Source: Armatimonadota bacterium
Lineage (GTDB): Bacteria > Armatimonadota > Fimbriimonadia > Fimbriimonadales > Fimbriimonadaceae
NCBI GenBank assembly: GCA_016125185.1
Contig: WGMG01000006.1
Span: 1-64,000, forward strand
Reading direction: 5' to 3'
DNA length: 64,000 nucleotides
Part shown: piece after piece, positions 18,872-27,050 of the stretch
Layout: each line of letters opens with the position of its first letter
How positions within the stretch are numbered: position 1 is the stretch's first letter
Notes under the pieces: model-generated
Seen by the model: only the letters and a program-made list of their open reading frames with translations
The model's database searches: none
What the model was told of the DNA's origin: nothing
Made by a program: the position numbers and the translations under genes

Positions 18872-20032
18872 ATGAGTATTGTTCAGATCATTGCGTTATT
18901 GCTGAGTCCGGTTCCTCTTCCTCCCACTTCCGAAGCCGCTTCCATCGCCAATAAGCTCGAAGCTGCCCATAACAAAATGACGACCGCTGCGGTCTTCGTT
19001 AGTGACGGCCTATCCGCCGCTATTCCGTCCAAGCTCTACATGTCGCCGTCCTATTGCGTCCTGGCCATGCCCAACCAGCAGATCGTTGAGCTCCGCACCA
19101 CCGAGGTCAAATTCTTCGACCAGCTTTTCAACCAGGTCGCCTCGATGAAGCCGCAAAAGCCGCTGAAGATTCCCGAGTCGTCCTCTTCCGTCGCCATTGT
19201 CCAGCGCGAGCCTCTCGCCTGGCTGGTGGACTCGGTCCAGCGAAACCAATTCTTCACCGAGGTCAAACGCGACCCTCGTTGGTCAGTTGGTGCGGGCAAG
19301 CTCGTCCTCAACGACGCCAAAAAGAAGATTCATTCCGAAGTTGTATTCGACTCCAAATACCACGTCACCCAAATCAAGATGTCGCTCAACAACAAGACGT
19401 TGACCGACTGGCGCTATCGCTACGTGGCCGGCAACGAAATCCCTGGCATTCCCAAGACGGCCAGGGAGGTCAAGGGCCTCTCGCCTCGGCCCGCCATCCC
19501 CGCTAAGACCCAAGCGCCTGCCGTCGAAACCGCCCAAAAGCTTTGGCGTTCCGTCAGTCGCCTCGAAAATCGAACCGTCATCCAGGCCAACAACGACGGC
19601 ACCTACGAACTCACCTTCCACCCCGGCGAGATCAAAGAAACCGGCCCCGAAGGCTCATGGACTCTCCGAGGCACCACCCTCGATATCAAGCCGAATAAGG
19701 GCAAGAGCCTAACCCTCAAAGGCGAAAGTGGTAAGTTTCTCGAAGGTCTCCGCTCGGCTGGCATTACCGCCTCGCCGTTCGCCTGGTATATCCTCAACCG
19801 AAAACTGCCTTACCTAGACGTTTTCGATGGATGCCAAACCCTCGAACTGGAAGGCACCGGCAGCTTCGAAGGAAAAACGATGTCGATCCTCTCCGTCAAG
19901 CGCCCCGGTTCGCGCGTCCGACTCTACGTCGATCCCACTACCGGCGACCTTGATATGGTCAGTAGCGACGCCGTCGACGCCAAAACCGGCGAAGTGATTA
20001 GCAGTTCGCGGATGAAGATTACTTACCGATAA
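18872..20032 (+). CDS. secreted protein of unknown function, possibly LolA/LppX-like fold
   Basis: 386 residues after a short hydrophobic signal (MSIVQIIALLLSPVPLPPTSEA). The pattern of an early helix (IANKLEAAHNKMTTAAVFVS) and then beta strands with repeated acidic Gly turns recalls outer-membrane lipoprotein carrier or sigma-E regulator-like folds, but this is weak. A middle linker near 195-210 is Pro/Ala-rich. The second half contains a TYELTFHPGEIKETGPEGSW strand pair. It starts immediately after the preceding permease stop, with GGGA about 8 bases upstream, and ends in a 14-base convergent overlap with the S41 protease gene. No catalytic motif is visible. Confidence 0.6.
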   Translation: MSIVQIIALLLSPVPLPPTSEAASIANKLEAAHNKMTTAAVFVSDGLSAAIPSKLYMSPSYCVLAMPNQQIVELRTTEVKFFDQLFNQVASMKPQKPLKIPESSSSVAIVQREPLAWLVDSVQRNQFFTEVKRDPRWSVGAGKLVLNDAKKKIHSEVVFDSKYHVTQIKMSLNNKTLTDWRYRYVAGNEIPGIPKTAREVKGLSPRPAIPAKTQAPAVETAQKLWRSVSRLENRTVIQANNDGTYELTFHPGEIKETGPEGSWTLRGTTLDIKPNKGKSLTLKGESGKFLEGLRSAGITASPFAWYILNRKLPYLDVFDGCQTLELEGTGSFEGKTMSILSVKRPGSRVRLYVDPTTGDLDMVSSDAVDAKTGEVISSSRMKITYR

Positions 20033-21335
20033 CCCGCGTATCGCGGAGGTGGATGCGCTCAGCGATCGCCAGCGCCGCCTCGATGGCTTTGTCTGGCGCG
20101 GTCGGCAGCAGAATTTTCGGGTCTTCCGCTGTCACGTCCGGGTCGATCGGGTGTCCCTCTAATCGCTCCGAAGATGGCGTCAGATAGTCCGCCACCGGTA
20201 TTTGGAGTGCAAACCCGTTCGTCGCGCTCGTAAACGTCGAGAACAGCACCGCTCCCGCCGACTTCGAACCGATCACCGTACACGATAGGTTGGACATATC
20301 GACCACGACCTTGCCGTCCTTATCGACCGTTTTCTTGCCGTACAAATCGCGCATCGCTGCCGTAAAGATTTCGCTCGCGCTACCGGTACCGGCGTTGATC
20401 AAAATGATCAGGTTGCCCTTGTAAAGGTTGTCCTCTTTGCGCGGCGTCATGATCATCGTATTCGCAAACGGCGTCAACTCGGCCAACTCCTTCGGGTCCC
20501 GCTTCTCCTCTTTCTTAAACTGCGTCACACTGTTTCGGTCGAGCATAAAGCCAAGCTTCAGCTTCGGGTCCACAAAGTATCCCGCCAGGTGCAATAGGTT
20601 GAATACCGAACCGCCTCCGTTGAACCGCAGGTCCACCACCAGGTTCTTGGCTTTCATGGCTTGGTCCATAAACCCGTCGATCGCCTTCGGATCGTAAGCC
20701 TGGTCGAAGGTGTTGACCTTCAGGTATCCGGTCGAGTCGTTCAGCATGCGAAACTCATCCTTCCGCACCGTCGAAAATGGTCGCCGAGTGATTGTGTACT
20801 CGAACAGCTTCCCGTCCGCTTTGCGGATTTTCAGCTTCACTTTCGACCCGTTTTCACCTGTCAAAACCGTGGTCGGCGTAATCTTCTTGCCGTCGATCTC
20901 CAGCATTGTATCGCCCGGCTCCAAGCCTGCGTCGCTCGCCGGACTCTTTTCGACCACACGAATGATGATCCGCCCGTTGCCGTCCGGGGACGGCTGACTG
21001 CTCACCCCGATCCCAACGGTCTGGCCGGTGTTTCGGATGTTCGCATCGCGCGGCGTCGCCAGCACGATATGGCTGAATCCGAACTTTTGTAAAGCTTCGT
21101 TCACCGCCGCCTTGAACTCATCATCGTTCTTCGCCGCGTCGATTTTCGGCCGCTCGGTCTTCAGAAACTCTTCCCATTTCTTAAAGTCGGTGCCCGGAAT
21201 AAAGGCCGCGTTCTCAATCGTCGAGGAAAGCCTCTGCAATATCTCGTCGCGAACCTCCGGTTTGCCATCGATGGTTTGGGCGTAGCCAAGCGCCGCCAGG
21301 GCCAGCGAAAGTCCGACGAGAAGGGATTTCTTCAT
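20019..21335 (-). CDS. secreted S41 peptidase with PDZ domain
   Basis: A clear signal peptide (MKKSLLVGLSLALAALGYAQ) leads a 438-residue protein. The helical N-terminal region is followed by a PDZ domain (about residues 110-175, VVEKSPASDAGLEPGDTMLEIDG). The TSPc catalytic core contains LVVDLRFNGGG and the nucleophile motif GTGSASEIF with Ser319. The Lys loop is of the SKSAGA type found in the IRBP-like S41 branch rather than the GKG of Tsp, so the general base may differ. It is the third S41-family protein in the window and the only one on this strand. The 3' end overlaps a convergent gene by 14 bases. Substrate unknown. Confidence 0.85.
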   Translation of the reverse strand: MKKSLLVGLSLALAALGYAQTIDGKPEVRDEILQRLSSTIENAAFIPGTDFKKWEEFLKTERPKIDAAKNDDEFKAAVNEALQKFGFSHIVLATPRDANIRNTGQTVGIGVSSQPSPDGNGRIIIRVVEKSPASDAGLEPGDTMLEIDGKKITPTTVLTGENGSKVKLKIRKADGKLFEYTITRRPFSTVRKDEFRMLNDSTGYLKVNTFDQAYDPKAIDGFMDQAMKAKNLVVDLRFNGGGSVFNLLHLAGYFVDPKLKLGFMLDRNSVTQFKKEEKRDPKELAELTPFANTMIMTPRKEDNLYKGNLIILINAGTGSASEIFTAAMRDLYGKKTVDKDGKVVVDMSNLSCTVIGSKSAGAVLFSTFTSATNGFALQIPVADYLTPSSERLEGHPIDPDVTAEDPKILLPTAPDKAIEAALAIAERIHLRDTRVIGK

Positions 21336-21359: not shown

Positions 21360-21662
21360 CTACTCGGCTTTGACTTCAACTTCAATGCCGATTTGCCGGA
21401 TGATCCGGGCGACCGTCTCACACTCTTCCTTATCGGCAAAATGAACGTTGGATTTACCCAAATGGTCGATTTCCCACGTCTCGATCTCCGCCTCTTCCAG
21501 GGTGCAGTGGGTCGCCACCAACAGGATCATGACCACCTCTTCGTAGGTGTTGAACTCGTTGTTGTAGACGATCACCATCCAAGACTCGTTCTCGACGCTT
21601 TCGTTTCCCGCGAGATCGGGCCGCTCGATGGTCTCCGTCGAATTCAGGATCAGTCGTCCCAT
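21360..21662 (-). CDS. ClpS-like adaptor, copy B (His retained)
   Basis: 100 residues with the ClpS fold pattern: WMVIVYNNEFNTYEEVVMILL, then a helix with EAEIETWEIDHLGKSNVHF and a final ECETVARIIRQIGIEVEV. ClpS delivers N-degron substrates to the ClpAP protease. Compared with E. coli ClpS, the ligand residues Asn34 and His66 have counterparts Asn34 and His67. The Asp35-Asp36 pair is Asn35-Glu36, and the Met gatekeeper position is Tyr40. The ATG at 21662 is preferred because the longer open frame is the antisense-like extension into copy A. It overlaps the stop of copy A by 13 bases. ClpA is not in the window. Confidence 0.75.
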   Translation of the reverse strand: MGRLILNSTETIERPDLAGNESVENESWMVIVYNNEFNTYEEVVMILLVATHCTLEEAEIETWEIDHLGKSNVHFADKEECETVARIIRQIGIEVEVKAE

Positions 21663-21934
21663 TCCGGTTGGACGGCGCTCTTCACGCCGATATTTTCCAT
21701 GGCCTGCGCCACGGCGGTACAGTCTGCCTCGGTCGAAAAGTGAACCGGCGCTTTGCCATAAGCCTGCGCTTCCCACGCTTCCATTTCGGCTTCTTGGACG
21801 TCGCATTTGGTAGCGACCATCAGCGTCAAAACAACCAACTCCAGCGGAGTCTCATCGTTGTCGAAGATAAGAGTCATCCACCGGCCGCTCGTGCCGCTAT
21901 CGGTAATTTCAGGTTGCTGAAGCGTTTGGCTCAT
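21650..21934 (-). CDS. ClpS-like adaptor, copy A (His lost)
   Basis: 94 residues, again with the ClpS pattern (WMTLIFDNDETPLELVVLTLMVA, then AEMEAWEAQAYGKAPVHF and AVAQAMENIGVKSAV). The Asn26-Asp27 pair survives, but the ligand loop is one residue shorter than in E. coli ClpS. The His needed to bind the N-terminal residue is replaced by Ala58. Canonical N-degron binding is therefore doubtful. The gene overlaps the upstream YfhO-like gene by 26 bases and the second ClpS-like gene by 13, so the three are co-expressed. It may have become a regulator or bind another ligand. Confidence 0.72.
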   Translation of the reverse strand: MSQTLQQPEITDSGTSGRWMTLIFDNDETPLELVVLTLMVATKCDVQEAEMEAWEAQAYGKAPVHFSTEADCTAVAQAMENIGVKSAVQPEWDD

Positions 21935-24101
21935 GCTTTCGGATGCTGAGAAGGGTTCCCAAGAGAAGGATACCTATACCAATTATAACGCCAATAAAGT
22001 TCGTCCGTCCCGAGTAGTCGATCCGAATCGTGCTCTGTTGGCCGTCAGTCTTAATCAATCGCCAGCCATCCTTGTCCTCGACTGTGGTGTTCGGCGTCGA
22101 GGTTTTCATGCCTGGGAAATAGCGGTCACGAACGAGAATCTCCGTCGCGCCAGGTGCTGGCTTGATCGTTTGGTGATCGTAACCATCATCGATGATATCC
22201 CCACCGTTGATTCGCGAATCGGATGTAGGAATTCCGCTCATTGAGTCAGTGGACACTGGATGTTTGACCCCAAGGTCCACTAATGCTTTGGTGGAGGCGA
22301 CGGTGAGATCATCCAAACTCTTCGCCCGCAATAGCGCCATGTTTCCATTCTCAGGCGGGAAGGGATCGCCGACCGTCTTCAACTTCTCCACGAACTTGGC
22401 ATCGAGGATTGAGTCGTAGCCGTACAGATCGTGAACCCGCGCCAGACTCGCGATGTTGGGCGGCATCGTCGCCTTTGGCGTCGTGACCATGCTCCAACTC
22501 TGCGAGGCAAAGACCTTCCGCTCCTGGCTGGGAATATTCAGGTTCGGCACCTCCAACGGCTTCCCGCTCAAGGGATGCTGCCCCAACAGCGTCAAAGCCG
22601 CCATCCCCGCCGGAAGAGCCGCCATCTTCGGCAGCTTCTTCGAAGCATACAACGCTAAAACAACGGCCGAAAGCAGGGCCGAAATCGCAATTCCCGGCAG
22701 GTATGGCTTGGTGGTCAAGCCGATGATCTTGCCGAGCGAGTCGTCGCCCGGCTGCCCCAGCATCCCGCCCAGCATGTTCATCAAGTTAAAACCGAGGCCC
22801 AAAAGAACGAGCGGGATCAAACCCATCGCCAGCCATTTCTTCGATCCATCGCCCTTCGCCTCTAGCCGGTCATAACCGATCGCCCCGAGCAAGCAGAGCC
22901 CCAATACGATCAAGATGTGCGCTCGCCCTGGTGAGCCCGTCGCCGACCAGCCTGGGAAGTAGAAGAACAATAGCTGGTTCATAGGCGAGCCAAACGCGAG
23001 CAAAACCCCAAGCACGACCAACGAGACCGGCACCGCTACACTCGCCGACTCTTCGTCTTTCCCTCGTCGTGCAAACAAAGCGAACAGCGCGAGCGAAAGC
23101 GCGATCGGCGTCACCCACAGTGCGCACTCCGCCGGATTTGCGCCCGGCTTCACAAACATCGACCAATAACCGTTTGGTACGCCCGACCCCTCGATCTCGC
23201 TGGCCTTGATCGACGGATCACCCAACAGCTTCGGATTAACGAGGCTCAGCGCCTCGTAAGGGGCTAAAACCCCCTTGCTGTAGCCCTGATACCCCTGCTC
23301 GGTCGGCGTGTTGCGCCGATGGCTCGTCGCCGAATTCTTGAGCACGATGCCGAGTTGGGGCGCCGATGCCGCCACGCCGACGAATAACGCCAATAGCGTC
23401 GCCAATACCGACACCTTTCGCACCGAAATCGCCGTCCAAGCCCAAACCACGAACGCCGCGAACATACCGTAGAAAGCAAACTGCAGGTGCCCGGCGTAGA
23501 TCATCATCGCCGTGGCCAACGCCGTCAAAAAGAATCCTAGACGTCGGTTCGGCATCGTAATCCCCGCCAGCACCCAGGGAATCCACGCCACCGTCGTCGG
23601 CACGCTCGCCAGCGGTGCCCAGGCGACCATGAACTGCGACAAGGCAAATGCCGTCGCCCCCAAAAGCGCTCCGCCTTCCGACACCTTCAGGTTGCGCAAA
23701 AAGGCGAACAGACCCCAAGCGGCCAGAAACAGATGCAGGACTCCAAGCAGGAGAATCTTAAATCCCGTCGATCCCGGCAGAAATGCGAACACCATGTGCG
23801 GCAGATAGAACCCACCCGACTGTGAGTTCGCCGTCAGCGGTTGACCCGCTAGCTGATATGGGTTCAAAATCGGAGCCTGCCCATGCCGCCAGGAATCGAA
23901 AACCAAGTCCCGCCAAGGCAGAAACTGAAGCACACCATCTGCTTGAAGCACGTCCCAGCCGTAGTCCGGCTTCGGCGCATCCGGCGTGACCATCGTCTGA
24001 ATATGCTCGGTCGGCCCCAACTCCTGCCCCGAAACCAGAGCCACCGAGTAGGGAAGAAACGCCACCACCAAAAGAAGAAGAAATATCTGCCAGCGTTTCA
24101 T
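21909..24101 (-). CDS. polytopic membrane protein, YfhO-like
   Basis: 730 residues with roughly a dozen hydrophobic segments and long extracytoplasmic loops. The pattern is that of the YfhO/GT-C-like integral membrane family: the first loop carries DVLQADGVLQFLPWRDLVFDSW, then NPYQLAGQPLTANSQSG. Helices follow to about residue 500, and a large soluble C-terminal domain ends in one last helix (FIGVIIGIGILLLGTLLSI). YfhO relatives help modify teichoic acids or other cell-surface polymers in Firmicutes; the role here is inferred only from the fold. It is the first gene of an operon with two ClpS-like genes. A repeat region lies just upstream of the start. Confidence 0.7.
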   Translation of the reverse strand: MKRWQIFLLLLVVAFLPYSVALVSGQELGPTEHIQTMVTPDAPKPDYGWDVLQADGVLQFLPWRDLVFDSWRHGQAPILNPYQLAGQPLTANSQSGGFYLPHMVFAFLPGSTGFKILLLGVLHLFLAAWGLFAFLRNLKVSEGGALLGATAFALSQFMVAWAPLASVPTTVAWIPWVLAGITMPNRRLGFFLTALATAMMIYAGHLQFAFYGMFAAFVVWAWTAISVRKVSVLATLLALFVGVAASAPQLGIVLKNSATSHRRNTPTEQGYQGYSKGVLAPYEALSLVNPKLLGDPSIKASEIEGSGVPNGYWSMFVKPGANPAECALWVTPIALSLALFALFARRGKDEESASVAVPVSLVVLGVLLAFGSPMNQLLFFYFPGWSATGSPGRAHILIVLGLCLLGAIGYDRLEAKGDGSKKWLAMGLIPLVLLGLGFNLMNMLGGMLGQPGDDSLGKIIGLTTKPYLPGIAISALLSAVVLALYASKKLPKMAALPAGMAALTLLGQHPLSGKPLEVPNLNIPSQERKVFASQSWSMVTTPKATMPPNIASLARVHDLYGYDSILDAKFVEKLKTVGDPFPPENGNMALLRAKSLDDLTVASTKALVDLGVKHPVSTDSMSGIPTSDSRINGGDIIDDGYDHQTIKPAPGATEILVRDRYFPGMKTSTPNTTVEDKDGWRLIKTDGQQSTIRIDYSGRTNFIGVIIGIGILLLGTLLSIRKHEPNASAT

Positions 24102-24663
24102 GCGCGCATTGCTGAGGTTACCGCTTGCAGGGATGGAGGGACACCGTGAAACGCGGAAAAGAGGTCAGCCCATGTGGACTGCTAGACTTGTCCTCGCCAA
24201 CTGGGAGGGTGGGCATCTTGCCCACCGGCAACCGATGAACAGAGGTCAGCCCTCTGGGAGTTGCGAGCGTCACGAAGTTCCCTTCCTCCCTCGGGAAGAG
24301 CCCTTGAAAATCTACGCCGCAAAGGCGTGGATTTTTGAGGTTAGGGCGCAGGGATGGAGGGACACCGTGAAACGCGGAAAAGAGGTCAGCCCACGTGGAC
24401 CGCGAGATTTGCCTCGACAACTGGGAGGGTGGGCATCTTGCCCACCGACAACCGATGAACGGAGGGCAGCCGATTGGGAGTTGCGAGAATCGTGAAGTTC
24501 CCTTCCTCCCATGGGAAGAGCCCTTGAAAATCTACGCCGCAAAGGCGTGGATTTTTGAGGTTAGGGCGCAGGGATGGAGGGGCACTGCGAAAAGCGGAAC
24601 GATGGTCAGCCGACTGGGAGTTGCGAGCGTCTCGCTCGCAGAACAAAGAAATCTAGAATCAAC
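24102..24663. repeat. tandem repeat of about 220 bases with REP-like palindromes
   Basis: Two full and one partial copy of a 220-221 base unit start at 24127, 24348 and 24568 (GCAGGGATGGAGGG). Each full unit holds GGTGGGCAtctTGCCCACC (24208-24226 and 24428-24446) and a second hairpin, AAAATCtACGCC/GGCGTgGATTTT (24307-24335 and 24527-24555). The first 15 bases resemble the repeats at 9140 and 14270. No convincing gene is present; frames that read through give repetitive peptides on both strands. Confidence 0.85.
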
Positions 24664-25008
24664 TCAGCAGTAAATAACCTGCTGAAGAGCCTTCGAGTGC
24701 GTCGGATCCTTTGCCAAAATAAACTTCAGATTCGAGCAGGCCTCCTCGTACATCCCCAGCATCATCTGCGTCATCGCAAAGTCATACCGGACATCGAGGT
24801 TCTCAGGATACTGTCGAGCAAGGGCCTCAAGCGCCGCCAGAGAGCCTTCGAAGTCACCCTCGAAACCCAACACCAGCGCCATCTGATGACGAGCGTTCAC
24901 ATGACCTGGATCGGCGGACAACACCTTGCGAAAGCACTCTTTCGCTTCTGGGTAGTTCCCCTCGCATCGCAGCTCGAACCCTCGTTGGTACAGTCCCTCA
25001 ATTTCCAT
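24664..25008 (-). CDS. TPR-repeat protein
   Basis: About 114 residues made of three tetratricopeptide-like helix pairs. The repeat boundaries can be seen at GLYQRGFELRCEGNYPEAKECFRKVLSADPGH, NARHQMALVLGFEGDFEGSLAALEALARQYPEN and VRYDFAMTQMMLGMYEEACSNLKFILAKDPTH (each of about 34 residues). No signal peptide, so it is probably cytoplasmic and a protein-binding adaptor. ATG at 25008 (MEIEGLYQ) is chosen over the ATG at 25032 because the promoter at 25033-25062 would initiate near 25026. The partner is unknown. Confidence 0.7.
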   Translation of the reverse strand: MEIEGLYQRGFELRCEGNYPEAKECFRKVLSADPGHVNARHQMALVLGFEGDFEGSLAALEALARQYPENLDVRYDFAMTQMMLGMYEEACSNLKFILAKDPTHSKALQQVIYC

Positions 25009-25032
25009 CGAATAGCCAAAAGCCCAAGTCAC

Positions 25033-25109: not shown

Positions 25110-27050
25110 TTACGCGGGTCCCGGCTCAAGTCGCGGAGGCTTCAGCGACTGGCCCGATCCCACTTCTGAATCCTTTACGGGTTCCACCGCTCCAGAAGTT
25201 TCAGGAACCGGCTTTATCGGCGGAAGTTCGCGACCTTCCATGACCGCCAGGAACTCGTCGCGATCCAAAGTCTCGCGCTCCAAGAGTGCTTTCACGATCT
25301 CGTCGAGCTGCTTTCGGTGCGTGTTTACGATGTCCACCGCACGCTGATAGCAGCGGTCCACAATCGCGCGAACCTCTTCGTCGATCTGCTTGGCGATGTC
25401 CTCGCTATAGTCGCGCTCTTCGTAGTAGTCGCGACCCAAGAAAGGATTCTCCTTGCTTCGACCGATCGCCAGGGTACCGAGCTTCTCGCTCATGCCGTAC
25501 TTGGTGATCATCGCCCGAGCGATCGCCGTCACGCGCTGAAGGTCGCCGGATGCGCCCGTCCAGACTCGCCCAAAGGCAGTCTCTTCGGCCACACGTCCAC
25601 CCAGGAGCGTCGTGATGTCGTCGATCAATTCTTCCTTGCTGACCAGGTACTTGTCCGCTTCCGGCAGGCTCCAGGTCGATCCCAGCGACATGCCGCGCGG
25701 CAAAACCGTAACCTTGTGAACCGGATCGCTGTGTTCCAGCAACTCGCCGATCAAAGCGTGTCCGGCTTCGTGGTAAGCGATCACTTCGCGCTCTTCGCCG
25801 TTCATGATTCGGCTCTTTCGCTGAGGACCTGCAATCACTCGGTCCAAAGCCTCTTCGAGGTCGATCATGCCGATCTTGCTTCGGTTGCGTCGAGCCGCCA
25901 ACAGCGCGCCCTCGTTCAGGGTGTTTGCCAGGTCGGCGCCCGTAAACCCGGGGGTTCGCTTGCTCAGCGTTTCCAGGTTGACTTCGCCCTCAAGCGGCTT
26001 GCCCTTGGAGTGAATCTTCAAGATTTCGAAGCGTCCCTTCTGATCGGGAGCATCGACCACGATCTGTCGGTCGAATCGTCCCGGGCGCAGAAGCGCTGGG
26101 TCCAAAACGTCGGGTCGGTTCGTCGCTGCGATCAAAATAACGCCGGAGTTCGGGTCAAAGCCGTCCATCTCGACCAGAAGCTGGTTGAGAGTCTGCTCGC
26201 GCTCATCGTGGCCACCGCCGAGGCCTGCGCCTCGCTGGCGTCCGACCGCGTCGATTTCGTCCACGAAGATCAGCGAAGGGCGATGCGCCTTGGCCGTCTC
26301 AAAAAGGTCTCGAACTCGCGCCGCACCCACACCGACGAACATCTCAACGAAGTCCGAACCGGAAATGTGGAAGAACGGCACGCCTGCCTCACCCGCGATA
26401 GCGCGTGCGAGGTGCGTCTTACCGACGCCTGGGGGGCCCGTCAGCAAGATTCCCTTCGGAATCTTGGCGCCGAGCGCCGCATACTTCTTGGTGTTTTTCA
26501 AGAAGTCGACGACTTCAAAAAGCTCTTGCTTGGCCTCGTCGATGCCCGCCACGTCGTCAAACGTGACCTTGGGGCCGCTTTCGCCGACTCGCCGAGCCTT
26601 GCTCTTGCCAAAGTTCATCGCCTGTGAGCCCGATGCTTGGGCCGCGCGGATGAAGAAGAACCAGAGGATCGCAACGATGATCAGCGTCGGAGCAAAGACT
26701 CCGATGATGTTGACGATGGCGCTGCTCGCGCCGGGGCCAACGACGTTCAAAGGAATGTGGGCGTTGTTTAGCTTGTCGAGGAGTTCGCGTGCGTTCGGGT
26801 TAGTCACCTCGAGGTAGGTGCACTTATAGTCCTCGCCGGTGGTCGCCAGCTTGCCGGTGATCTCGTTCTGCTGCCAGGTGGCGTCGAGAACTGCACCAGA
26901 ATCCACCTTCTGCATCAGCTCATACGGCTTCAACTCGGCGATGTGAGTTTTAAAGCCCATACCCTTGGGCGCCAGGATGCTCAAAACGATGAAGCCAACC
27001 AAAAATAAGGTGGCAACAATGATGATGGCGTTTCGACTGTTATTTCTCAA
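25110..27050 (-). CDS. ftsH: ATP-dependent zinc metalloprotease FtsH (TTG start)
   Basis: Membrane-anchored AAA+ protease that degrades misfolded membrane proteins and selected regulators. Two N-terminal transmembrane helices (about residues 8-25 and 115-135) flank the periplasmic domain. The AAA domain has Walker [10 protein letters not shown] (about 205), Walker [12 protein letters not shown], the pore motif FVGVGAARV and the second-region arginines [14 protein letters not shown]. The zinc site is AYHEAGHAL (near 426). The tail of about 30 residues is Pro-rich. The start codon is TTG with GGAGAA just upstream. It lies 70 bases downstream of tilS in the same direction, an arrangement also known from other bacteria. 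Confidence 0.95.

Follow-up and report, generated by a model that had tools for sequence, protein, structure and literature searches.

A conserved tandem pair of divergent ClpS proteins in Armatimonadota as candidate N-degron adaptors

The 64,000-nucleotide stretch of Armatimonadota DNA analyzed here (the window) contains two divergent clpS genes in overlapping tandem, a pair that is conserved across Fimbriimonadales-type genomes, i.e., the whole order. Judged from sequence and predicted structure, both products are fairly likely to be N-degron adaptors for ClpCP, with ClpS-D as a bulky-hydrophobic reader and ClpS-U as a diverged second reader. ClpS is a small adaptor that reads the first amino acid of proteins and thereby selects them for degradation, and Aat is the N-degron writer that makes Leu/Phe N-termini. 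In the proposed mechanism, ClpS-D and ClpS-U would act as N-recognins, catching the first residue of a protein and passing the protein to ClpC-ClpP. ClpS-D, the putative older copy, would be the main reader of Aat-made Leu/Phe N-termini and of other bulky hydrophobic ones, using a carboxylate version of the pocket that replaces the textbook one and has the same residues as that of UBR1/UBR2. ClpS-U, whose pocket is near-textbook (N34/H66) in most species and has drifted to D34/Q66 in this lineage, probably reads an overlapping yet different set of N-termini. YfhO would be a co-transcribed neighbor.

The genes are read from the minus strand in the order yfhO-like (24101-21909), clpS-U (21934-21650) and clpS-D (21662-21360). 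They encode a YfhO-like polytopic membrane protein of 730 residues, a second divergent ClpS of 94 residues (ClpS-U, pocket D25/D27/L31/Q57, corresponding to positions 34/36/40/66 of E. coli ClpS) and a divergent ClpS of 100 residues (ClpS-D, pocket N34/E36/Y40/D66). The yfhO-like gene shares 26 nt with clpS-U, and the end of clpS-U shares the 13 nt ATGGGACGACTGA (21650-21662, minus strand) with the start of clpS-D, an overlap that probably couples translation of the two. The original prediction had described these three reading frames and both overlaps, and the sequence confirms them; it omitted the flanking genes. A gene for an S41 (CtpA-like) protease with a signal peptide-like N-terminus (20019-21335, minus strand; Pfam Peptidase_S41 3.9e-28 plus PDZ) starts 24 bp past clpS-D, and tilS, ftsH and TPR genes lie upstream of the yfhO-like gene on the same strand. 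By synteny, the secreted-looking S41/PDZ protease occupies the same place directly after clpS-D in many relatives. The ftsH gene (25110-27050, minus strand), part of the conserved tilS-ftsH-TPR-yfhO-clpS-U-clpS-D order, is context outside the proposed mechanism, as is the short TPR protein gene (24664-25032, minus strand; Pfam TPR), which keeps its position between ftsH and yfhO. The interval between the TPR gene and yfhO holds a 220-bp tandem repeat of 2.2 copies (24127-24611), and a short core that contains the palindrome GGTGGGCATCTTGCCCACC is found again at about 20 further genomic sites.

Both products exceed the curated cut-off of 23 bits for Pfam ClpS (PF02617), ClpS-D at 45.9 bits and ClpS-U at 25.9 bits, and they are the sole ClpS matches of a profile search in the 4.5 Mb genome. 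The 13-nt start overlap is itself conserved, 44 of 72 related pairs having an ATG/GTG in frame at that offset. By all three findings, the genes are not a chance occurrence. AlphaFold models of ClpS-D and ClpS-U, built from 47 and 48 related sequences with mean pLDDT of 83.5 and 88.8, respectively, each show a confident ClpS core and a low-confidence N-terminal tail. The ClpS-D model superposes on many solved ClpS structures with Z of 13-15 (top 14.8) and 1.0-1.3 Å over 75-79 residues, and the ClpS-U model on several with Z of 12-15 (top 15.0) and 1.1-1.4 Å over 75-78 residues. The top structural matches of both models are solved ClpS entries, many holding N-degron peptides, and both copies superpose on peptide-bound ClpS at 1.0-1.4 Å. 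A single-sequence search with ClpS-U against solved structures gave no match. The N-terminal ~24 residues of ClpS-D are predicted to be disordered (residues 1-21 mostly with pLDDT below 50), and the first 20 residues of ClpS-U, with pLDDT averaging 58-67, likewise form a predicted disordered extension. The YfhO-like protein of the window itself has no match to Pfam YfhO (PF09586) at E 1, and 5 of 10 orthologs do match, with a best E of 8e-6.

Over 67 core residues, ClpS-D and ClpS-U are identical at 27, and they share 14 and 13 residues, respectively, with E. coli ClpS. The textbook ClpS pocket consists of N34/D36/M40/H66, with Met40 as the gatekeeper. Across residues 28-76, both copies align with E. 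coli ClpS without a gap, and this alignment gives N/N/E/Y/D at positions 34/35/36/40/66 of ClpS-D and D/N/D/L/Q in ClpS-U; the ligand loops are of equal length (NNEFNTYEEVV in ClpS-D, DNDETPLELVV in ClpS-U and NDDYTPMEFVI in E. coli). For ClpS-D, the alignment agrees with the earlier reading of Asn34, of Asn-Glu replacing Asp35-Asp36 and of Tyr at the Met40 gatekeeper position. Three other residue assignments do not survive it. The counterpart of His66 in ClpS-D had been taken to be His67 and is Asp66, and the replacement in ClpS-U had been given as Ala58 and is Gln57, each being one residue off, and the loop of ClpS-U, once described as one residue shorter, is not. The α-amine contact positions 34/36/66 are thus N, E and D in ClpS-D and D, D and Q in ClpS-U, polar or acidic in both yet different from the textbook set. 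The D34/Q66 combination of the window ClpS-U is shared with one relative (L145), and most other relatives differ at 34 and 66. Phylum-wide, both ClpS types have near-invariant Cys53, Cys81, Trp63-Glu64 and His74 (E. coli numbering). At the ClpA-contact positions 79/82/84, which are Glu/Glu/Lys in E. coli, ClpS-D has E, E and V and ClpS-U has A, T and V; with two of three contact residues kept in ClpS-D and none in ClpS-U, the case for the delivery step is weakened, most of all for ClpS-U.

In relatives, the pocket positions 34, 40 and 66 co-vary. Of 99 ClpS-D-type sequences, 98 have Asn or Asp at position 34, 89 have Asp or Glu at 36 and 98 have Asp or His at 66; Tyr40 is partnered by Asp66 in 56 of 56 cases and by His66 in none. 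A correlated-evolution test gives likelihood ratios of 62.1 for 40/66 and 22.6 for 34/66 (p 0.00015), with a maximum of 18.4 for the other 27 columns against 66; a sister-pair test of 34/66 is underpowered, having two supported independent pairs only. Outside the clade, Tyr40 goes with Asp66 in 5/5 sequences (three from Armatimonadota, UBR1 and UBR2) and Met40 with His66 in 14/14. Among the 75 ClpS-U-type sequences, 65 have N34/H66 and most have an acid at 36; 12 of them combine Tyr40 with His66, which shows that the 40/66 pairing does not hold everywhere. Order-wide, the two types differ at 66/40, being mostly D/Y in ClpS-D and H/F/M in ClpS-U. In Caulobacter ClpS, the residues equivalent to 34, 36 and 66 grip the α-amine (PMC12493166), which, together with the patterns at these positions, argues that amine binding is kept. 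The original prediction had proposed that the altered pockets could change specificity, which these data support, or that the proteins may read no N-terminal residues, which is unsupported for ClpS-D, since its amine positions are kept and co-vary in the 99 relatives. Comparison with one relative (L037) indicates that both genes are under purifying selection, which is weaker on clpS-U: clpS-D has a pN/pS of 0.15 and clpS-U one of 0.41, both rough values with synonymous sites near saturation.

The window pair resembles E. coli and Caulobacter ClpS, the ClpAP adaptors, in profile, modeled fold (1.0-1.4 Å), disordered N-terminal extension, polar α-amine contacts and the presence of Aat in the genome, but differs in its ~20% core identity, its Tyr40/Asp66 or Leu/Gln pocket, the absence of Lys84, a tandem location away from clpA and a genome with ClpC in which no ClpA was found. 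Leptospira also has two ClpS per genome, and its ClpS1 shares three substitutions with ClpS-D, namely Tyr as the gatekeeper, Asp in place of His66 and Val in place of Lys84 (PMC12493166). Unlike in the window, Leptospira clpS2 adjoins clpA and clpS1 lies elsewhere, and the two are no recent tandem duplicate, as they share only 17% identity. Leptospira ClpS proteins inhibit ClpA, for which the ClpA N-domain is required (PMC12493166). In cyanobacteria, ClpS1 and ClpS2 are likewise paralogs that work with ClpC, their measured specificities differ and ClpS2 accepts Leu, Val and Ile as well, yet no tandem layout is described there (PMC7966870). Two ClpS proteins per genome and a Tyr/Asp pocket are therefore already known from cyanobacteria and Leptospira; a literature search found neither an order-wide coupled tandem ClpS pair beside yfhO nor a ClpS study of Armatimonadota.

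The four pocket residues of ClpS-D, Asn34, Glu36, Tyr40 and Asp66, are identical to those in the ClpS-like N-domain of human UBR1/UBR2, although that domain belongs to a large ubiquitin ligase. The UBR ClpS-like domain type binds type-2 N-degrons, i.e., bulky hydrophobic N-termini (PMC4447728). A further proposal, speculative and rather doubtful at present, is that a UBR-type ClpS-D might take β-branched N-termini (Ile) along with Leu/Phe, in which case the coupled pair would share out the N-degron code, one reader being of UBR type and the other of ClpS type. The tree support that would tie ClpS-D to UBR is 86, on a long branch. The ClpS-D/ClpS-U profile gives strong UBR matches, which at first resembled a special kinship, but the profile of canonical-like ClpS from the phylum matches UBR equally (40 versus 39.5 bits), and we do not claim specific descent.

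The public records nearest to the window are metagenome assemblies of Fimbriimonas and other Armatimonadota. A ClpS match is present in 161 of the 291 Armatimonadota genomes sampled, and almost all genomes of the window's family and of related families carry two matches, separated by about 300 bp. Of 72 distinct related pairs, 52 have YfhO as the next gene upstream, on the same strand, a lower bound because some of the 20 pairs without it lie near contig or stretch ends; the order tilS-ftsH-TPR-yfhO-clpS-clpS is found in about half of the loci compared, often with S41 next. The trio that the original prediction had recommended seeking in relatives is thus widely conserved, with the pair itself order-wide, contrary to the lack of conservation that would have refuted that prediction, and its view of two divergent ClpS paralogs in an unusual layout away from clpA is supported. 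In a ClpS tree of 161 sequences and 91 columns, which has many weak forks, ClpS-U types form one clade (44 rows, SH-aLRT 97) nested among ClpS-D types, and ClpS-D types are also present in outgroup families with no ClpS-U partner. This distribution fits a history in which ClpS-D predates the order and a tandem duplication in an ancestor of the order gave rise to ClpS-U. A canonical-like ClpS (NDD...H66), which was not found in the window's family, may also be present in outgroup genomes. One genome (G105, locus L250) has an additional ClpS-like gene, its third, which diverges further and is not part of the tandem pair.

The gene overlaps, the frequent yfhO neighbor and the nearby S41 protease and FtsH genes could be taken as signs of a membrane-linked adaptor module for envelope proteins that comprises ClpS-U, ClpS-D and YfhO, as the original prediction had raised in part. 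Gene order in relatives makes this barely plausible. The pair has no adjoining YfhO in, e.g., L039, L046, L053 and L062, it has moved apart from a YfhO kept elsewhere in L050, and the outgroup loci examined have single ClpS-D genes with no YfhO detected nearby; furthermore, both models combine a disordered tail with a ClpS core of soluble type. As the pair and YfhO separate in some genomes, the module is unsupported, and YfhO is better regarded as a neighbor of two candidate N-degron adaptors.

The genome encodes the partners that such adaptors would need: Aat (E 3.5e-60), ClpP (2.1e-79) and a ClpC of 866 residues with double Clp_N. A Clp_N profile search of the genome matched ClpC, ClpB, one stand-alone Clp_N protein and one weak match, with no ClpA among them. 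The stand-alone protein, of 261 residues (L106:3353-4138; contig C6 about 1558350-1559140), has a double ClpC-type N-domain without AAA+ and could be a competitor for, or a store of, Clp adaptors. Among the 291 phylum genomes, ClpS and Aat occur together in 124, ClpS only in 37, Aat only in 8 and neither in 122, and Aat is found in 56 of 62 genomes with typed ClpS-D versus 21 of 44 without, all counts being uncorrected for kinship and incomplete assemblies. Where a ClpS-D type is the only ClpS match, Aat is present in 6 of 7 genomes (G027, G028, G034, G045, G055 and G209, not G203), and ClpS-D is kept without Aat in G072, G129 and G203, among others. Single-copy genomes in the window's family are mixed: G079 has ClpS-D with Aat, G108 has ClpS-U with Aat, and G132 and G133 have ClpS-U with no Aat. 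We thus dropped the idea that ClpS-D alone serves Aat, given G108, and the division of labor between the two copies is tentative in view of ClpS-D without Aat and of ClpS-U alone with or without it. In a sister family of the order (L070, L072 and other f3/g41 loci), a canonical-like ClpS is kept and Aat was not found, the reverse of the window's family.

That either copy can be the sole ClpS beside Aat (ClpS-D in G079 and G045, ClpS-U in G108) is what plain redundancy would predict, i.e., two copies that have one specificity, are retained for dosage and do not divide their function; this is very unlikely, since the order-wide difference of the pockets at 66/40 is left unexplained by dosage. 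It is less improbable, though still unlikely, that ClpS-U binds no N-degrons and acts on ClpC otherwise, as an anti-adaptor or regulator competing for the ClpC N-domain, leaving ClpS-D as the sole reader. The window ClpS-U, in which His66 and Asn34 are replaced by Gln and Asp, respectively, lacks all three checked E. coli ClpA-contact residues, evolves faster than ClpS-D and has the lower ClpS profile score, and E. coli ClpS is known to inhibit the work of ClpA on other substrates (reviewed in PMC12493166). However, most ClpS-U types keep N34/H66 and the acid at 36, Aat is retained in G108, where ClpS-U is the only ClpS, and the missing contact residues speak equally against ClpC binding. The lost ClpA-contact residues, the mixed single-copy/Aat genomes, and the deviation of the window ClpS-U from most relatives at 34 and 66 together with its weak profile score, also count against the account that we favor, in which both proteins would be N-degron readers for ClpCP.

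Collectively, our findings describe a ClpS duplication that spans the order, is probably translationally coupled and goes together with Aat, the N-degron writer. They also suggest that the combination of Tyr40 and Asp66 is a second pocket design, shared by Armatimonadota, by Leptospira ClpS1 and by human UBR1/UBR2, and that would provide a testable rule for how N-recognins switch the first residues they read.
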